This document shows, piece by piece, positions 19,856 through 29,016 of a DNA stretch of 64,000 bases. The DNA comes from Trypanosoma brucei gambiense DAL972. Taxonomy: Eukaryota > Euglenozoa > Kinetoplastea > Trypanosomatida > Trypanosomatidae. The stretch's first letter is position 1; the number at the start of each line of letters is the position of its first letter. The notes beneath the pieces were generated by a model. That model was given only the letters and a program-made list of their open reading frames with translations. It was not told where the DNA came from and did no database searches. The position numbers and the translations under genes are program-made. The stretch covers positions 4,106,617 to 4,170,616 of the forward strand of contig NC_026744.1 of NCBI RefSeq assembly GCF_000210295.1, written 5' to 3'.

Positions 19856-21973
19856 TTACACCACACTCGACCGCCGCCACTGAGGAGTTGCCTCCAACAT
19901 TGTTTCATCCTCTTTCCATATGGGAAAGCGTGGCGTCTCGGATAGAATAACTGGATGCATGTTGGGCAACCGGTACTCGCTCCACAATGAGTTTGGTGAT
20001 GGGGTCAAAAGCGGCTGCGTGTCCAACAACGGGTCTCGGTTTTCCACTGAACTAAGCGGTTGCATGAGCTGTAACACGAGTTCGTGCATTTGTCGCTCTA
20101 TTCTATGCTTACGGAGCACGTCCACGAAATTGACTCGGTTGAGCTCCCACACTTCTGTTCCATCATCAGGTGCAACAATGCTACACGTCCACGGGTGGCG
20201 TCGCACACAGGTGTAGCCAACGATGCTTCCATCAGGAACGCGTGGCAGACTCGCCCACTCCCTTGCCTGCACAGTGCCTTCCGCATTACGTTGCACTACA
20301 CCTTCGTCTTCCACTACAACTGCACCGCCTTGGCAGAAAAGAATGACGGAGTTGCACTCACTTCCACGCTCGACGATGCATTGCCCCGCTTCGTATCTCA
20401 TCAATTTAAAACGTGCTGCGCAATCCGTATAGAAGCTGTCATGGGGACCGCAGAGACCCACCAACGGCATTTTCCGCAACTGCTCTATAAAAAATGGTGA
20501 AACATTCACTCGGTCTGTTTTGTTATCGCGCGGTCGGAAGACATGGCTGGCGATGGAGTTGTTGGCAATTGTAACACGTTTACTGAAAACACCTGCAGCA
20601 CCTTGCCCGCGTTGTATCAACTTAGGCACCTGTGAGGGGCTCAAAACGACAGTTTTGAGTACATCGAGAGAAGGAGGAACAAAACGCATCCCGTCAAAGC
20701 ACTTATCGGCAGTCAGACTGATGACTTTAGCAGCGCGATGAATCTGTTGTCGGATATTTTGATCCCGTTTCATGAACGAAGAAAGAACAGAAAACGGCAG
20801 AAGGTAGAGGTCCACATTGGTCAGGGTAAAAAATTTATCGCCTAGTCCCTCATGGAACATGCACTGCCATTCGCCAAAGGTATGTCCTTCCGAAAATAAT
20901 GTGCGGCTCCTTGGTTGTGACGGAGGAGCACCACCCATGGGAATAACCGCCTCCTCCTGCTGGAGGCACACTACGCCACGCCAAATAAAGAATATGTGTC
21001 GGGGAGCTTCCCGTTCTCCTATTTGCACACCAGCGGGCCTTACACGAGGCACGAGATGCTCCATCAACTGCAACAAATCTCTATCGCTGAGTGACACCAG
21101 CAGTGGGCAGATTCGCATACGGTTGCATGTCATACATCCAAAGTGCGGGAGCAGCCGCTCCCTCGTCTCGAGTGCTTTCATAAGAAGAGATCTGTGAATC
21201 TGCGGGGGAAACGATCCTAGCAGGGTGCAGTAGGCGCTTTTTGGTATCCATCCAATCAACACTACAGAAGACTCCGCCAGTAAGTACTCCGTACAGGGAA
21301 AACTCCCTACAGCAGAGCATTCCCCAAGTATAGTCGGGGCAGACAACAACGTGTTCCTCTGAGTTCGCAGAGCCTCAGACTCGATACTTCCTACACTCAT
21401 TTTTTCACTGCACTGAGTCGATGGCGTAGCAACAATAGGGCCCTCGTCGTCATCGTACGTGATAGAGACTTCCACGTGAGAACTAGACAACCTCCTATCG
21501 TGTGACACCCTCCCTCTAGTTTGGCTAACAGTTGAGCATTTCTTAACAATACCTTTCGCCACGAATACTACCGCGTTTGAGGGTTCTCTGCTGTACTGGA
21601 TAAACTCACCTCGTAGATATACTCTATAGCTTATAGAATCCAGTAGCCTCTTGAGTTGCTCGTTGTTATTCTCTAGTTCATCCACCGCGTTGGATTTTTT
21701 TAGGCAGGAACCCAACACGGAACGCTGCCTGAGAGCCCTGAAAAGCAGCGGTTCCATTTTCACCTCCTTGCTCATATCCCTCGCGACTCGTTCCCGATAC
21801 CACCTGGCAATATATCGACGAGCAATGGGATATAACAACCGCCGTAACGCTGCAAAAGCAATGGCTCGCACCTCCTCACGGGTGGAGGACGGGTATTGCA
21901 TCAGCTGCCATCCAAAAGGTACCGTTACCTGCGAGGCCGCGACACGCCTGGAAGCCGCCCACCTGCTGTCCAT
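19856..21973 (-). CDS. Protein with three cyclic-nucleotide-binding-like folds
   Basis: 705 residues from ATG at 21973 (MDSRWAASR); the longer frame starts with TTG. Three CNB-like beta-rolls can be traced at about 115-250, 290-410 and 505-625. In the second, HTFGEWQCMF keeps the FGE of the phosphate-binding cassette, but the conserved PRxA arginine that holds the cyclic phosphate is absent. The first reads LGECSAV, also without the Arg, and the third (IVGYTC) lacks the Glu too. The folds may therefore bind another ligand or none. Trypanosome CARP1, the cAMP response protein, has a comparable architecture, but I recall CARP1 as lying elsewhere, so this is not named as CARP1. There is no kinase or cyclase domain and no membrane segment. 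The N-terminal ~60 residues are Arg-rich. Confidence 0.8.
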   Translation of the reverse strand: MDSRWAASRRVAASQVTVPFGWQLMQYPSSTREEVRAIAFAALRRLLYPIARRYIARWYRERVARDMSKEVKMEPLLFRALRQRSVLGSCLKKSNAVDELENNNEQLKRLLDSISYRVYLRGEFIQYSREPSNAVVFVAKGIVKKCSTVSQTRGRVSHDRRLSSSHVEVSITYDDDEGPIVATPSTQCSEKMSVGSIESEALRTQRNTLLSAPTILGECSAVGSFPCTEYLLAESSVVLIGWIPKSAYCTLLGSFPPQIHRSLLMKALETRERLLPHFGCMTCNRMRICPLLVSLSDRDLLQLMEHLVPRVRPAGVQIGEREAPRHIFFIWRGVVCLQQEEAVIPMGGAPPSQPRSRTLFSEGHTFGEWQCMFHEGLGDKFFTLTNVDLYLLPFSVLSSFMKRDQNIRQQIHRAAKVISLTADKCFDGMRFVPPSLDVLKTVVLSPSQVPKLIQRGQGAAGVFSKRVTIANNSIASHVFRPRDNKTDRVNVSPFFIEQLRKMPLVGLCGPHDSFYTDCAARFKLMRYEAGQCIVERGSECNSVILFCQGGAVVVEDEGVVQRNAEGTVQAREWASLPRVPDGSIVGYTCVRRHPWTCSIVAPDDGTEVWELNRVNFVDVLRKHRIERQMHELVLQLMQPLSSVENRDPLLDTQPLLTPSPNSLWSEYRLPNMHPVILSETPRFPIWKEDETMLEATPQWRRSSVV

Positions 21974-22807
21974 TGGCTGGTTAACACTCAAACAGTAACA
22001 ACAACGGCGACGCGCTCACGAACAACACAATACCAGAGCGGAAGAAGGAGAAATGAGGCCGCGGATTGTGCTGAACGGCCAATGAAATGGCGCGCGAAGG
22101 TGCAAAAACACGGCAGAGAGTATGTTCAAGCGTGCGTGTGTGTGTGTGTGTGTGTGTGTGTAACCAACGAAGTGAGGTTGGGGGTATCAATACAAAATGC
22201 CTACGAGAGTCGCAATAAAAACGTAAAAAAGCAGTAGCACTACGGGGGGGGGAAATGTAAATTAGGGAAAAAAGAAGACGGGATTCCGTACTGGGCATAG
22301 TTATTTCATTTTGGTGCAATCATAAAATTTGCAGGTTAGTGTACTGAGAGCAGGCTAAACAGTGGTGACTATCCTCGCTGTTGTCACCTTTCCCCAACCC
22401 CTTTCACTTTTTTATTGGTATAATACGGATAAGGGAAGAGGGAGGTAGAAAAATAAAATCGTTCTTTGGTGAGGCGAAACACAATATTAAAGTGTAAAGA
22501 AAGTCGTGAGAAAGGGGTGCGAAAAAATGTTAGTGGACGAGCCACAAAGTGATATTCCTATCGTTTCCATCTTCCCCCCCTCCATCTAAAGGCTGTGACT
22601 ACACTCAACGGTGCAGATTCGGAGAAAACGCTAAAGGTAGAAAATCGTTAGATGCTTCTGTCACCAACGGCGGCATTACTGAGCTTACGCACATACAATC
22701 TATCCTAACACTTTTGATGGAGTTGTTATATACATCAAAACAATAAAAAAAAACAAAATGAAGTCAAAAGAACCAGGGACGGGCCCCTAGACACGATTAC
22801 GTGGCCA
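21974..22807 (-). other. Intergenic region with a TG repeat
   Basis: About 830 bases including a TG microsatellite at 22135-22161. UTRs and splice signals of the flanking genes; no coding frame. Confidence 0.5.
22135..22161. repeat. (TG)n microsatellite
   Basis: About 13 TG units on the plus strand, (CA)n in the sense of transcription, about 160 bases upstream of the CNB-like gene. Confidence 0.9.
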
Positions 22808-24762: not shown

Positions 24763-27700
24763 TTAAGAATCCCTGCTCTCGTCGTTACATAACGAAGCAA
24801 CGTTACCTCGTTCATCAGAACTTTCAATGTCCATCTGCTCGTACTTGCGACTCAGATTACCCATCACCACGAAGCTGCTGCTAGCAAGCCGACTTCGTAT
24901 ACGGTTAAAGTGTTCTACAATGCAATTGTTTTCCTTCCTGTAGGTTGAGATAACCGAATTTGAATGCAGTATCTTCCTCTGTAAATATTCCACCTCTTCC
25001 CGTAGCCGCGCAACGGTCTTGGGTGGGTCCTTGGGAAGACTTCCATCATCAAGCTTCAACAAAGATGGCATATCTACCCTTTCCCCAGTTTCTTTTTCGT
25101 AAATAGCGATCTCTTCTTCTAGAAGCGTCATCGCCCGGGGTATCTTCTCATCCCTGTCCAGTTGTTCCGACAGAAAGTTCATTTCCTCATGATATGCCTC
25201 GTAGCGGTAGGCAACACGTATGTCAGAGACTCGGCTCTTGCGTGCATCATTTCCAAGCGTCGAATTGAGGTAATACAAATTCCCGAGGGCGTTCTTCTTC
25301 CATGCGTGAGGGAAGCCACTTTGTAGCACACTGTTACGTGCAATCTCTGACAAATCATTGAATTCAAACTTCCAAAGTTTGGCGGCAATAGAGTATTCTT
25401 CAATAAGCGGTTCCCGTGTGAAGTGGAAGTAAAGCGGTTGATTGGTCGCAAGGCTAACATTTAGCCCACGGCGAAAAAATAGAGGAAAGGGGTTCAAAAG
25501 ATACTCTGAGGCGGCCGCGGTATTGCTCAACGGCGACATCGCCACACCCACCTGAGTTATATAGTACATGTATTCTAGCACGGGGTTGTTACGCAGCGTC
25601 ACACCATGGTTAATGCCATCGGCCAGCAGAAATCCCCCAATGAGATGTTCAATGTCCCCCAACTCACCGCATTGGGGTCGAAACGCGAAGGTGCTAAGTC
25701 CGCGCGATGCGCGGAACTGATTCAATGTTGTAATGTTTGCCCAATAGTAGTAGAGATACATGTTATATGGCGGGTTTAACTCACTATTCCAGTCGTGTGG
25801 GTACTTGCAGGTGAGTGGAAGATCAATTTTCGTTTCATCATCAACGCAGTCCATCCCTGATACGTGCGTGAGAAAATAGTGAAATCTCGTGTCTTTGGCG
25901 GGATGAAGACTGACTTCCCACAAGGGCTGGAAGATATTGTCCAAGTACTCGCCGAAGTTACGCACGATCCCCTGCTGACGGAGCCGACGGTAGCACCGGG
26001 GCAAACTAATCATCCAACGGTTCTGCCTGCTCGCCATGCCATAGCGATCAAACCAGTGTGCCAACAAGGCCCATTCACTCTTTGATTTGCCACCAATAAC
26101 CAAACGGTTTTCAGAAAAACTGAAAGCATCCTCCTGATACAGCTCTAGTGTGCGTTTTGTCAGTTCAGCAAAATAGCGTCCCTTCATAAAGTTATCCGGG
26201 TCCAAAAAAGTTGTGCGCAGCTGCGGGTTCGTGTTTAACAAATGATTCAATTCATCGACGGTAATGCGCGTGGGATTAATCTTGTGCCGCTCCAGCACTT
26301 GCCTTAATGTCACCGGCTGGTTGTCCTCCTCAAACACTACATCATGTCCATGATGAAGCGCCTTCTCCACGAAGAACTCCAGCAGCGTACGGGCATTCAT
26401 ACCGGCCGCCGTTTGCACGTTAGTATCCACCTTATGCGCGGTGAAAAAGTCCCTGTTATTCCATTCCTTTTCCTCCTTCTTACCAGCTTCTTTAGAAATG
26501 TTAAGGGCCAGGTGAAGATGGAACTTCCGCTCCAGAAGATTCAACCGCTGCGTAGCGAGATTCCGCAGCTTTTGGTGACCCATAACCGCACCCCGGACGG
26601 TGTACACGTCACGTATGAACTCCTTGACAGGAGGAATGAAACTTGGCCACTGTGGCGCCAACCCACTGCGACACGTGAGAAAAACACCATAGTAGTTGTT
26701 ATATTCCCAAAGCGACTCATCGAAATTAGAGTCGTTGAATACATCCTCCACCTTTACGTCAACATATTTAACACGCGGATTAACGTACTTACTTCGGAGA
26801 ACAATAATTTCGCGAAGCAGCTCGACTGCTTCTCGTTCACGGAAGCCTGTGGGCCCGTCAGTAACATCGATTCGTGAGAAGACGACACGCCAATCCGTGT
26901 GATTGGCTCGCTTTGCATTTCGCAACTGTTGAAGATCGTCGTCCAACGTCCTTGCGGCACCCGTCACGGTGACCATGTTTATGCGTGTGGGCTGCTCTCC
27001 CTTCTTAGCCACCTGCGAAAGGACAAGGTTCAGCACCGCCTCTTCGTGTACTAAACATTCTTGGCGGAATTGTAAACGGGAATCACAGGCACCCAAGCGG
27101 TGAACATCACCTCCACCAAACTCCAGGTGCTGAAAGATGTCACCCAACCACTTTTGCTTTACCGCGTCAGGAAAGTTACTGTTGAGAACACTGTTCCGCG
27201 ACAGTTCATACACAGCCATTGGCGTCATGGAAAACAACTTCATCAGCGTTGCGTATTCCTCCAGCAGTGGATTGATTGAGTGGTGCACATAAAGAGGATC
27301 GGATGTTGTTATAGATACCACCAATCCCCGGAGAAAGTATCGAACAATGGGATGGTCAAAGTAAGACATGCTCAGCGCATTGTCACGCAGAGGTGACATA
27401 ACAATACCAATCCGACAGTACATGAAGAGGTACTGCATGATCCAGCTACTTTGCAGCGTGTTGGCGTGGTACACTACGTCACCTAGTAGGAAACTGGATA
27501 TCAGTTGCTCGTACATGGGGGCCCGCTCGAACACGGAGGGACTGAAGTTGAGTGTGTTTAAGTCATACCGCGCGCGCAGGCAGTTCAGCGCTAAAAGGTT
27601 AGACCATATGTAGTAAAAGAAGTAGCAGTCGCTAATGGAAGCTGTGTATTTCACTTGCTCCGGACTTACAGCATCCAATGTAATGCTCTGCGATTGCGTT

Positions 27701-29016
27701 TGAGACCCCGTTAGAATGCTGATGGAGCCTGTTTTCTTCAGTAATAAGGCGACGTCCACCCACCGCTGTTCTGATGGGTGCAATGTAGCCATAAACATCG
27801 GATAGAAAATATTCTTTAGTTGGTCGGAAAAGGTGTCACATGTAATAGGTTGCATGTTTGGCCCTTCAGGGGGTGCAGTACGGGGGATGCAAATTGTCCA
27901 GCTGTTTAGGGTGAATGAGTTAAACCCTTGTCGACTCACCCACGCAGCAAGTTTCTCTAGTTCCTCCGCATTGTGTCCATAAACCTTAAGTTGCATTTCT
28001 GTGGCAAAGGTCTGTCGCCCCCGGAACTCCCGCTGCTCGAACTCTGGACGAATGATAGACCCAAGGAGATCACCATCTCTCGAACCGTTTGTAGAGAGAA
28101 ATGACTGAAGCAAATCAGTGGCAAAACGGCCTCCTGGGTTGAGCGCCGAGTCAAACGCATCGTATTGCTGAAATTTGTTGTGATACTTGGGCGGGTGCAT
28201 CCCAAGTCCTTGCACTGTTAGCTGACGTGGGTCCTTCACACCATGAGATTCCAAGTACTCATGCAGCAGTACGGTTTTCCCCTTCTCCCGGAATAGCGGG
28301 GTACGTGGTTGTTCAGTGGCTGTTGAGATGATGAACTCAAGCACAACCTGAGCTATGACAGAAGTGTTCAACTGTAGTGCGTTGTCAACGCGCGTACACT
28401 GGACATACATATTGTCACCACACACAGGTCTATCTACATTGGACTCTATTTTCCAATTCAACAATGCAAATAACTGTGACTTTCTCTCCAAAGTAAGGAG
28501 TCGGGACCTCGCCGCTGAAAGACAGGGGCCAGATTCAATCACACTGTAGACCAACCGCACGTCCCGTACATACGTTTCCCACGGTATTACATGCGTCTTC
28601 ATGCCGCCAAACCGATAAACGCCCCGGTCAAATACTAGTGTTGTCTCGTCGTCCCCTGGGGTAATGTCAGAGGATTCTTCCTCGTCGCCCTCTTTTGTTA
28701 GGCTATCAAACTCACCCTTGTCTCGTTGCTTGTATTTCTGCCTCGCAAGAATGACATTGGCGATCATCTCTGCACACTTTGCAAAGTCTCTATCGCCGTC
28801 ATCCTCGCCTATAATAACCCTCTGGTATCGACTCGACGGATTCTTTCTAATATTCTTTCTTCCTGCATCAGCGTTGAATGCTGTCTTTTCTCTCTGCCAC
28901 GCAGACTGCTCCGTGCGTGAGAGTTCCGGCTGGGGGCCAGTCTTGATGGAAGTAGGTGATCGGTCACGAGGCGAAGCAACCGGCCCCGACATGGGAAGGG
29001 GCGTTGGATCCGACAT
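24763..29016 (-). CDS. Tandem AMP-deaminase-like protein, both domains lacking catalytic residues
   Basis: 1417 residues with two full AMP-deaminase-like domains, about 135-660 and 800-1290. AMP deaminase converts AMP to IMP using a zinc held by HxH, His and Asp. In domain 2 the usual KVDTHIH reads KVDTNVQ (N866, Q868), FRPHCGE reads FRPQCGE (Q1115, Glu1118 kept), H1137 is kept (INHG), and STDDP reads ATNQP (N1192, Q1193). In domain 1 the HxH position is SNVD (N193, D195), the HCGE motif is gone (FSPSVFE, 491-497), H517 remains, and STDDP reads TTSDP (S572, D573). Neither domain should bind zinc normally, so this is probably a pseudoenzyme or regulatory protein. Residues 1-130 are polar, with an acidic patch; 1295-1375 may be coiled coil. 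Domain 2 is nearer the family consensus than domain 1. The ATG at 29016 is the first in frame. Confidence 0.9.
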   Translation of the reverse strand: MSDPTPLPMSGPVASPRDRSPTSIKTGPQPELSRTEQSAWQREKTAFNADAGRKNIRKNPSSRYQRVIIGEDDGDRDFAKCAEMIANVILARQKYKQRDKGEFDSLTKEGDEEESSDITPGDDETTLVFDRGVYRFGGMKTHVIPWETYVRDVRLVYSVIESGPCLSAARSRLLTLERKSQLFALLNWKIESNVDRPVCGDNMYVQCTRVDNALQLNTSVIAQVVLEFIISTATEQPRTPLFREKGKTVLLHEYLESHGVKDPRQLTVQGLGMHPPKYHNKFQQYDAFDSALNPGGRFATDLLQSFLSTNGSRDGDLLGSIIRPEFEQREFRGRQTFATEMQLKVYGHNAEELEKLAAWVSRQGFNSFTLNSWTICIPRTAPPEGPNMQPITCDTFSDQLKNIFYPMFMATLHPSEQRWVDVALLLKKTGSISILTGSQTQSQSITLDAVSPEQVKYTASISDCYFFYYIWSNLLALNCLRARYDLNTLNFSPSVFERAPMYEQLISSFLLGDVVYHANTLQSSWIMQYLFMYCRIGIVMSPLRDNALSMSYFDHPIVRYFLRGLVVSITTSDPLYVHHSINPLLEEYATLMKLFSMTPMAVYELSRNSVLNSNFPDAVKQKWLGDIFQHLEFGGGDVHRLGACDSRLQFRQECLVHEEAVLNLVLSQVAKKGEQPTRINMVTVTGAARTLDDDLQQLRNAKRANHTDWRVVFSRIDVTDGPTGFREREAVELLREIIVLRSKYVNPRVKYVDVKVEDVFNDSNFDESLWEYNNYYGVFLTCRSGLAPQWPSFIPPVKEFIRDVYTVRGAVMGHQKLRNLATQRLNLLERKFHLHLALNISKEAGKKEEKEWNNRDFFTAHKVDTNVQTAAGMNARTLLEFFVEKALHHGHDVVFEEDNQPVTLRQVLERHKINPTRITVDELNHLLNTNPQLRTTFLDPDNFMKGRYFAELTKRTLELYQEDAFSFSENRLVIGGKSKSEWALLAHWFDRYGMASRQNRWMISLPRCYRRLRQQGIVRNFGEYLDNIFQPLWEVSLHPAKDTRFHYFLTHVSGMDCVDDETKIDLPLTCKYPHDWNSELNPPYNMYLYYYWANITTLNQFRASRGLSTFAFRPQCGELGDIEHLIGGFLLADGINHGVTLRNNPVLEYMYYITQVGVAMSPLSNTAAASEYLLNPFPLFFRRGLNVSLATNQPLYFHFTREPLIEEYSIAAKLWKFEFNDLSEIARNSVLQSGFPHAWKKNALGNLYYLNSTLGNDARKSRVSDIRVAYRYEAYHEEMNFLSEQLDRDEKIPRAMTLLEEEIAIYEKETGERVDMPSLLKLDDGSLPKDPPKTVARLREEVEYLQRKILHSNSVISTYRKENNCIVEHFNRIRSRLASSSFVVMGNLSRKYEQMDIESSDERGNVASLCNDESRDS

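Follow-up and report, generated by a model that had tools for sequence, protein, structure and literature searches.

A conserved double AMP-deaminase pseudoenzyme encoded beside a catalytically complete paralogue in Trypanosoma brucei

What can an adenosine monophosphate (AMP) deaminase do once it has lost its metal site? Trypanosomatids are unable to make purines, and AMP deamination is therefore a junction of their salvage pathway. The question is raised by a gene found in 64,000 nucleotides of the Trypanosoma brucei gambiense DAL972 genome (assembly GCF_000210295.1, contig NC_026744.1, positions 4,106,617 to 4,170,616; this whole stretch is called the window below). Its product, which we call D because it is one of four paralogues, A to D, is currently annotated as an AMP deaminase. 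Computation shows D to be a conserved pseudoenzyme that lacks a metal site in both halves; the same genome encodes a paralogue, B, with a complete catalytic set. The best explanation is that D regulates B, a plausible role by analogy with other dead paralogues of trypanosomatids.

D is encoded on the minus strand by an open reading frame (ORF) that runs from ATG to TAA through 1417 residues without any internal stop; the plus-strand reading of the same interval contains many. Two stretches of the protein match the Pfam family PF19326 (AMP_deaminase), with a total of 777 bits and above the curated cut-off for both halves, and a whole-genome profile search scored the halves at 501 and 278 bits. 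The presence of two AMP-deaminase units in a single chain, proposed in an earlier note made from the letters of the window, is thus confirmed. D has the deaminase barrel fold, its second half matching the folds of 2a3l and 8hu6. The scaffold motifs that were said to be kept could all be located by alignment: YYYWANI at residue 1089, MSPL at 540 and 1160, and ARNSVL at 1226, whose counterpart in the first half (606) reads SRNSVL.

In adenosine deaminase, the zinc ligands are the HxH pair, the His of HCGE and the first Asp of STDDP, and the catalytic residues are the Glu of HCGE, a later His and the second Asp of STDDP. The alignment places other residues at all four zinc-ligand positions of each half of D: A213, Q215, S494 and S572 in the first half, and N866, Q868, Q1115 and N1192 in the second. 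The first half retains E497, H517 and the second Asp (D573). The second retains E1118 and H1137 and has Q1193 in place of the second Asp, so that two of the seven catalytic residues are kept. The losses previously read at HCGE (S494-F496 and Q1115) and STDDP (S572 and N1192/Q1193) agree with the alignment, as does the loss of the HxH pair in both halves, at N866/Q868 in the second. The first-half pair had been misplaced at N193/D195, about 20 residues upstream in 'ESNVDRP'; its correct position is A213/Q215. The Lys and Tyr of another element, the 'RFDxFNxKYNP' loop, are found in 42/42 single-domain AMP deaminases and probably contact the substrate. The second half of D has lost this loop. D has neither the zinc ligands nor the full catalytic set of a catalytic AMP deaminase, and judged from the alignment both of its halves are pseudo-domains of the fold that lack a metal site.

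Zinc ligands supplied by other residues, which the earlier note had named beforehand as one of two refuting results, were sought by comparing D with B and the single-domain enzymes. No replacement was found in the active-site motif columns of the second half. There, 11 columns have H, C, D or E in D that are absent from B or the single-domain enzymes, and 6 columns have H or C in D that are absent from the single-domain enzymes, 2 of them shared with the list of 11. These columns lie outside the motifs and therefore no replacement set is apparent by alignment. Three candidate columns of the first half (450, 695 and 729) lie in or beside motifs and fall short of a full set. The possibility of zinc held by substitute residues was rejected, as far as an alignment can tell, for both halves.

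The conservation of D was studied with family rows that correspond to clusters at 90% identity, so that counts of rows are not counts of independent events. They derive from lists of the best 120 of 135, the best 120 of 676 and the best 120 of 1230 homologues. The D set is made up of 42 rows: the window, P0003-P0042 and P0073 (one half only), P0002 being left out as 100% identical to the window. B comprises 33 rows in the letter counts and 34 in the wider survey and FastTree analysis described below (P0154, one half, added), and A comprises 34 and 35 (P0075 added). In the second half of D, the replacements at the first HxH position (N 40), the HCGE His (Q 41) and the first Asp (N 38) are near-fixed, as are the retained Glu (42) and His (38), whereas more than one letter is common at the second HxH position (H 23, Q 13) and at that of the second Asp (Q 23, K 8, E 7). 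Among the 236 columns that are fixed in B, 15 are fixed to another letter in D, and active-site motifs hold 10 of these 15 versus 31 of the other 221 (Fisher p 1.4e-5, with a motif set picked after viewing the alignment). Since most of the 42 rows share these replacements, the loss is more than chance, and we read the second pocket as a changed, retained site rather than as drift.

One way to account for the kept residues is that D has stayed catalytic and uses E1118 and H1137 in another, or a metal-free, chemistry. The Glu occurs in 42/42 second halves and the His in 38/42, but the known deaminases of the superfamily need a metal, the motif columns of the second half offer no alternative ligands by alignment and the Lys/Tyr loop is lost; we regard this explanation as quite improbable.

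The identity between the T. brucei and T. cruzi second halves reaches 84.9% (D), 87.1% (B), 87.7% (A) and 71.4% (C); the corresponding values for the first halves are 63.5%, 65.9%, 63.9% and 51.8%. Between T. brucei and L. donovani, second-half identity is 71.2% (D), 83.6% (B), 66.8% (A) and 61.9% (C). D is near B in conservation among trypanosomes and clearly below it at greater distance; these comparisons mark it as a pseudoenzyme that is being maintained, under slightly weaker constraint than B. The suggestion that the fold has been kept without catalysis is supported by the two pseudo-domains, the identity to T. cruzi and the near-fixed pocket. It could be supposed that D is a relic on its way to becoming a pseudogene, as its catalytic residues are lost in both halves. 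Nevertheless, its frame of 1417 residues is intact, its second half shows no relaxed constraint relative to T. cruzi and orthologues exist in trypanosomes, Leishmania, Phytomonas and Leptomonas, so that this idea has hardly any chance of being correct. By name, the orthologues among the best 120 of 135 matches come from T. vivax, T. congolense, T. cruzi, T. rangeli, T. grayi, several Leishmania, Porcisia, Leptomonas and Phytomonas. The L. tarentolae orthologue is P0016. Strigomonas culicis, Novymonas esmeraldas, Angomonas deanei and Bodo saltans (P0130, P0133, P0141, P0145) were named as B-type only, and none of them was among these best 120 of 135; their apparent lack of D may be due to incomplete data or unnamed rows. 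The first three of these species harbour bacterial endosymbionts.

A maintained fold could also point to a structural or scaffold protein, for instance of the cytoskeleton or flagellum, in which the fold, the oligomer surfaces and a C-terminal helix are what matters. D retains 90 of 128 universally conserved AMP-deaminase columns in its second half and 49 of 128 in its first, and a long C-terminal helix is predicted. Yet such a role leaves the near-fixed N/Q/E/N of the former active site unexplained, and the literature on AMP deaminase, T. brucei and flagella shows no flagellar proteome by title, supplements being outside that search. We consider it unlikely.

The genome (22.1 Mb, 11 contigs) contains nine AMP_deaminase matches that correspond to the four genes, all of them tandem; the gene of the window is D. 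None of the four has a complete first half, and that of C aligns only in part (the STDDP motif alone in this genome, some Leishmania first halves being likewise partial). The second half of B has 7/7 catalytic residues in 33/33 rows, and B is the only paralogue with a complete catalytic set. The second half of C keeps the four zinc ligands and has G (21/26 rows) or C (5/26) in place of the second Asp, this genome reading STDGA. A is dead in both halves: its second half keeps the HCGE Glu in 34/34 rows and its pocket has R (32/34), S (33/34), Y (33/34) and D at the first Asp (32/34). C ends in SRL, a glycosome-type signal, and its relatives have S-x-L, M, I or V at this place; a glycosomal AMP deaminase with SRL has been reported in T. 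cruzi (PMC7082770).

The parallel losses in D had been explained by inactivation before the tandem duplication or by a shared non-catalytic job. A tree built from 134 half-domains separates the two halves of kinetoplastids, diplonemids and euglenids: those in first position make up one clade (57 rows, support 96) and those in second position another (59 rows, support 97), both of which also include some taxon-unlabelled rows; P0188 and P0224 have their second half within the second-half clade and their first half outside the first-half clade. This tree sampled 20/42 D, 11/34 A, 8/33 B and 6/26 C rows, the other group labels being assigned by ourselves and checked by FastTree. When the catalytic columns were removed, a 52-row tree (8 D, 4 A and 4 B proteins, C left out) supported the first-half and second-half clades at 100/100 each. 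The constraint of the two halves of D as one clade was rejected (difference in log likelihood 245; approximately unbiased test, p-AU 9e-42). A FastTree analysis without the catalytic columns, which gave long-branch warnings among unlabelled rows, recovered the second halves of 42 D, 35 A, 34 B and 26 C each as one clade. Therefore, the tandem duplication came first and is older than the kinetoplastid paralogues. Since the second half is still complete in B, the two halves lost function separately. Inactivation before the duplication is ruled out by the half-domain trees, the constraint test and the complete second half of B, and a shared non-catalytic job does not follow from the parallel loss. 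No row labelled kinetoplastid, diplonemid or euglenid has a complete first half, although some keep several sites (P0155, 5/7); as read from these sequences, the loss of the second half came later, in A and D. Second halves join A with D (90 in the 134-half-domain tree, 87/79 in the 52-row tree), whereas first halves join A with B (97/89 in the 52-row tree).

A wider survey found 63 tandem rows outside A to D, of which 59 have one complete (7/7) and one incomplete half, 1 has both complete and 3 have neither. The second half alone is complete in 28, which come from euglenids, diplonemids, prokinetoplastids and unlabelled rows (8 are transcript variants of one prokinetoplastid gene), and the first half alone in 31, from Planoprotostelium, Pelomyxa, Mastigamoeba, Physarum, Entamoeba marina, Amoebophrya and unlabelled rows. 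The complete half thus has opposite positions in euglenozoans and amoebozoans; the reverse-order proteins, from amoebozoans and others, include P0067, P0072, P0167, P0177, P0179 and P0243. Among the 31 impaired second halves, 22 keep the four zinc ligands and have lost the second Asp, often with the Glu. The survey and the FastTree analysis omit P0001, P0002, P0122, P0197 and P0050, which duplicate or nearly duplicate the four proteins of this genome; the first half of P0196 is truncated, P0071, P0235 and P0237 are gapped at some first-half sites, and some organism labels were read from database prefixes whose meaning we presume. The dead half looks like a standard part of tandem enzymes, given that 59 of the 63 rows combine one complete and one incomplete half, and it is perhaps their regulatory part.

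P0163, an environmental sequence, is the only one of the 63 proteins with 7/7 catalytic residues in both halves, and two Euglena-type proteins, P0172 and P0175, are damaged in both. Because P0175 clusters with complete second halves of euglenids (88 in the 134-half-domain tree), it probably became a dead paralogue independently. The chains that are incomplete in both halves belong to the kinetoplastid A and D groups, to C (by one residue) and to the Euglena-type pair, and such chains probably arose at least twice. Another tandem protein, P0176, is labelled as an archaeon metagenome bin, a doubtful label because the rows listed nearby are protist proteins.

The changed pocket of D brings up the possibility that D alone is a zinc-less nucleotide receptor, whose second pocket binds, but does not turn over, AMP, inosine monophosphate (IMP) or a related purine and which signals to something other than AMP deaminase. 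Three near-fixed pocket letters and the kept Glu and His would suit such a receptor. In addition, PDB entry 6ijn, the D295N mutant of a related N6-methyl-AMP deaminase, has its nucleotide substrate bound (PMC12133300), and an Asp-to-Asn change in the superfamily can therefore leave a nucleotide-binding pocket; the likeness is at the superfamily level. Nevertheless, T. brucei D has other residues at each of the four zinc-ligand positions, and the conserved Lys/Tyr loop is deleted in most D rows, which argues against an enzyme-like binding of AMP. A receptor acting alone thus seems doubtful, and a ligand role for the pocket, though possible from the letters it keeps, is weaker than a regulatory role.

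We tentatively favor, at a little less than an even chance, a prozyme-like function in which D is a regulatory partner of the active B and tunes the conversion of AMP to IMP. D would assemble with B through the AMP-deaminase scaffold and the C-terminal helix, and as a regulatory subunit it would then tune the reaction; the signal may be a purine nucleotide held in its neutralised second pocket, where Glu and His are kept. As in prozyme-type systems, the genome pairs dead with complete: among the four genes, B has its complete second half. In L. donovani starved of purines for 48 h, AMPDA-32 (LinJ.32.2690) was up, and AMPDA-04 was among proteins without significant change or, in one case, decreased (PMC3937319). 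B fits LinJ.35.4860 (PMC3836990). C carries the name LmjF.13.0980 (P0230), and the orthologues of B (P0134), A (P0182) and D (P0014) are located on contigs of 2.09, 0.48 and 1.56 Mb, respectively. By elimination, AMPDA-32 would be the Leishmania orthologue of D and AMPDA-04 that of A, an assignment that we infer, since the chromosome sizes behind it are presumed ones.

Several points weigh against this partnership. B could be self-sufficient, and the existence of a second dead paralogue, A, means that D need not be the partner of B. The second half of D is less constrained than that of B, both in identity to L. donovani (71.2% vs 83.6%) and in mean commonest-letter frequency (0.773 vs 0.854), and 7/42 D rows deviate at at least one of the N/Q/N positions (P0039, for example, retains the HCGE His). 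The first and second halves disagree on the closest paralogue of D in the 52-row tree. Equating D with AMPDA-32 relies on elimination and contig size, not on the sequence of the locus tag, and most of the late changes in starved L. donovani were about 2-fold or less (PMC3937319).

If D and A are regulators, the 'AMP deaminase' annotations and the proteomic readings that depend on them need splitting: both of the L. donovani starvation proteins, AMPDA-32 and AMPDA-04, D and A by inference, would be pseudoenzymes and not deaminases. A broader conjecture, which we hold to be rather improbable, is that dead tandem AMP deaminases gave a family of zinc-less nucleotide receptors. In kinetoplastids, their amide pocket (N-x-H/Q, QCGE, N at the first Asp) would sense a purine nucleotide, and by joining the active paralogue as a subunit such a receptor would match AMP deamination to the purine supply. 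In that case, a nucleotide-receptor subunit would be a sensor of adenylate status for organisms without purine synthesis of their own. The literature searched contains no description of an AMP deaminase pseudoenzyme, subscription journals and supplements being outside the search. Among the papers found on trypanosome AMP deaminase, none concerns D by title, and a split into live and dead paralogues is absent from the accessible passages that name the enzyme. Another purine-salvage gene, T. brucei APRT2, has been found to be inactive and misannotated (PMC8836349).

The coordinates of D and its paralogues are collected in Table 1. A neighboring ORF of the window (19856-21991, minus strand, 711 residues) encodes a cyclic-nucleotide-binding domain (PF00027, E 2e-10).

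Table 1 Location of D, its altered sites and the other AMP-deaminase paralogues (window positions unless a contig is given)
Feature	Location	Strand	Basis
Whole ORF of D, tandem AMP-deaminase-like protein, 1417 residues	24763..29016	-	ORF and PF19326 match
First AMP-deaminase-like half, residues 102-682, zinc site lost	26971..28713	-	Hidden Markov model match
Second AMP-deaminase-like half, residues 793-1299, zinc site lost	25120..26640	-	Hidden Markov model match; Pfam stretch 793-1286; fold match 2a3l, 8hu6
Single long predicted helix of the C-terminal tail, residues 1331-1379, possible coiled coil	24880..25026	-	AlphaFold2 on residues 690-1417, predicted local distance difference test (pLDDT) about 66-85
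Half 1 HxH position, A213-L214-Q215, in 'VDNALQL'	28372..28380	-	Alignment
Half 1 HCGE position, S494-V495-F496-E497, Glu kept	27526..27537	-	Alignment; Glu in 35/41 D-family first halves
Half 1 'HG' motif His, H517, kept	27466..27468	-	Alignment; His in 24/41 D-family first halves
Half 1 STDDP position, S572-D573, first Asp lost, second kept	27298..27303	-	Alignment; second Asp in 32/41 D-family first halves
Half 2 HxH position, N866-V867-Q868	26413..26421	-	Alignment; N in 40/42 D-family rows
Half 2 HCGE position, Q1115-C-G-E1118	25663..25674	-	Q in 41/42, Glu in 42/42 D-family rows
Half 2 'HG' motif His, H1137, kept	25606..25608	-	His in 38/42 D-family rows
Half 2 STDDP position, N1192-Q1193	25438..25443	-	N in 38/42 D-family rows
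Half 2 site of the lost 'RFDxFNxKYNP' loop, residues 925-934	26215..26244	-	D-family gaps: K column 32/42, Y column 29/42
Paralogue A, 1690 residues	contig C9, L009:1460-6532	+	Profile match
Paralogue B, 1417 residues	contig C9, L010	-	Profile match
Paralogue C, 1558 residues, C-terminus SRL	contig C11, L011:1297-5973	+	Profile match

Compared with the single AMP deaminases of PF19326 (2a3l from Arabidopsis and 8hu6, AMP deaminase 2), D has two units per chain, 4/4 zinc ligands replaced in each of them and a second half without the Lys/Tyr loop. B shares its tandem layout and degenerate first half, but the second half of B has 7/7 catalytic residues where that of D has 2/7. The two dead paralogues differ from each other: A has fixed R, S, Y and D where D has H or Q, Q, H and N, and the loop, lost in most D rows, is mostly present in A with its Lys replaced. 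Beyond AMP deaminases, dead trypanosomatid paralogues that activate their partners are the AdoMetDC prozyme (PMC5201418) and the dead copy of deoxyhypusine synthase (PMC3663545). The prozyme responds to metabolite shortage, its levels increasing under methionine starvation (PMC6221367). These are other enzymes, in which heteromer activation has been demonstrated, whereas for D it is proposed by analogy; all of them, D included, are dead paralogues that occur alongside another copy in the same organisms.

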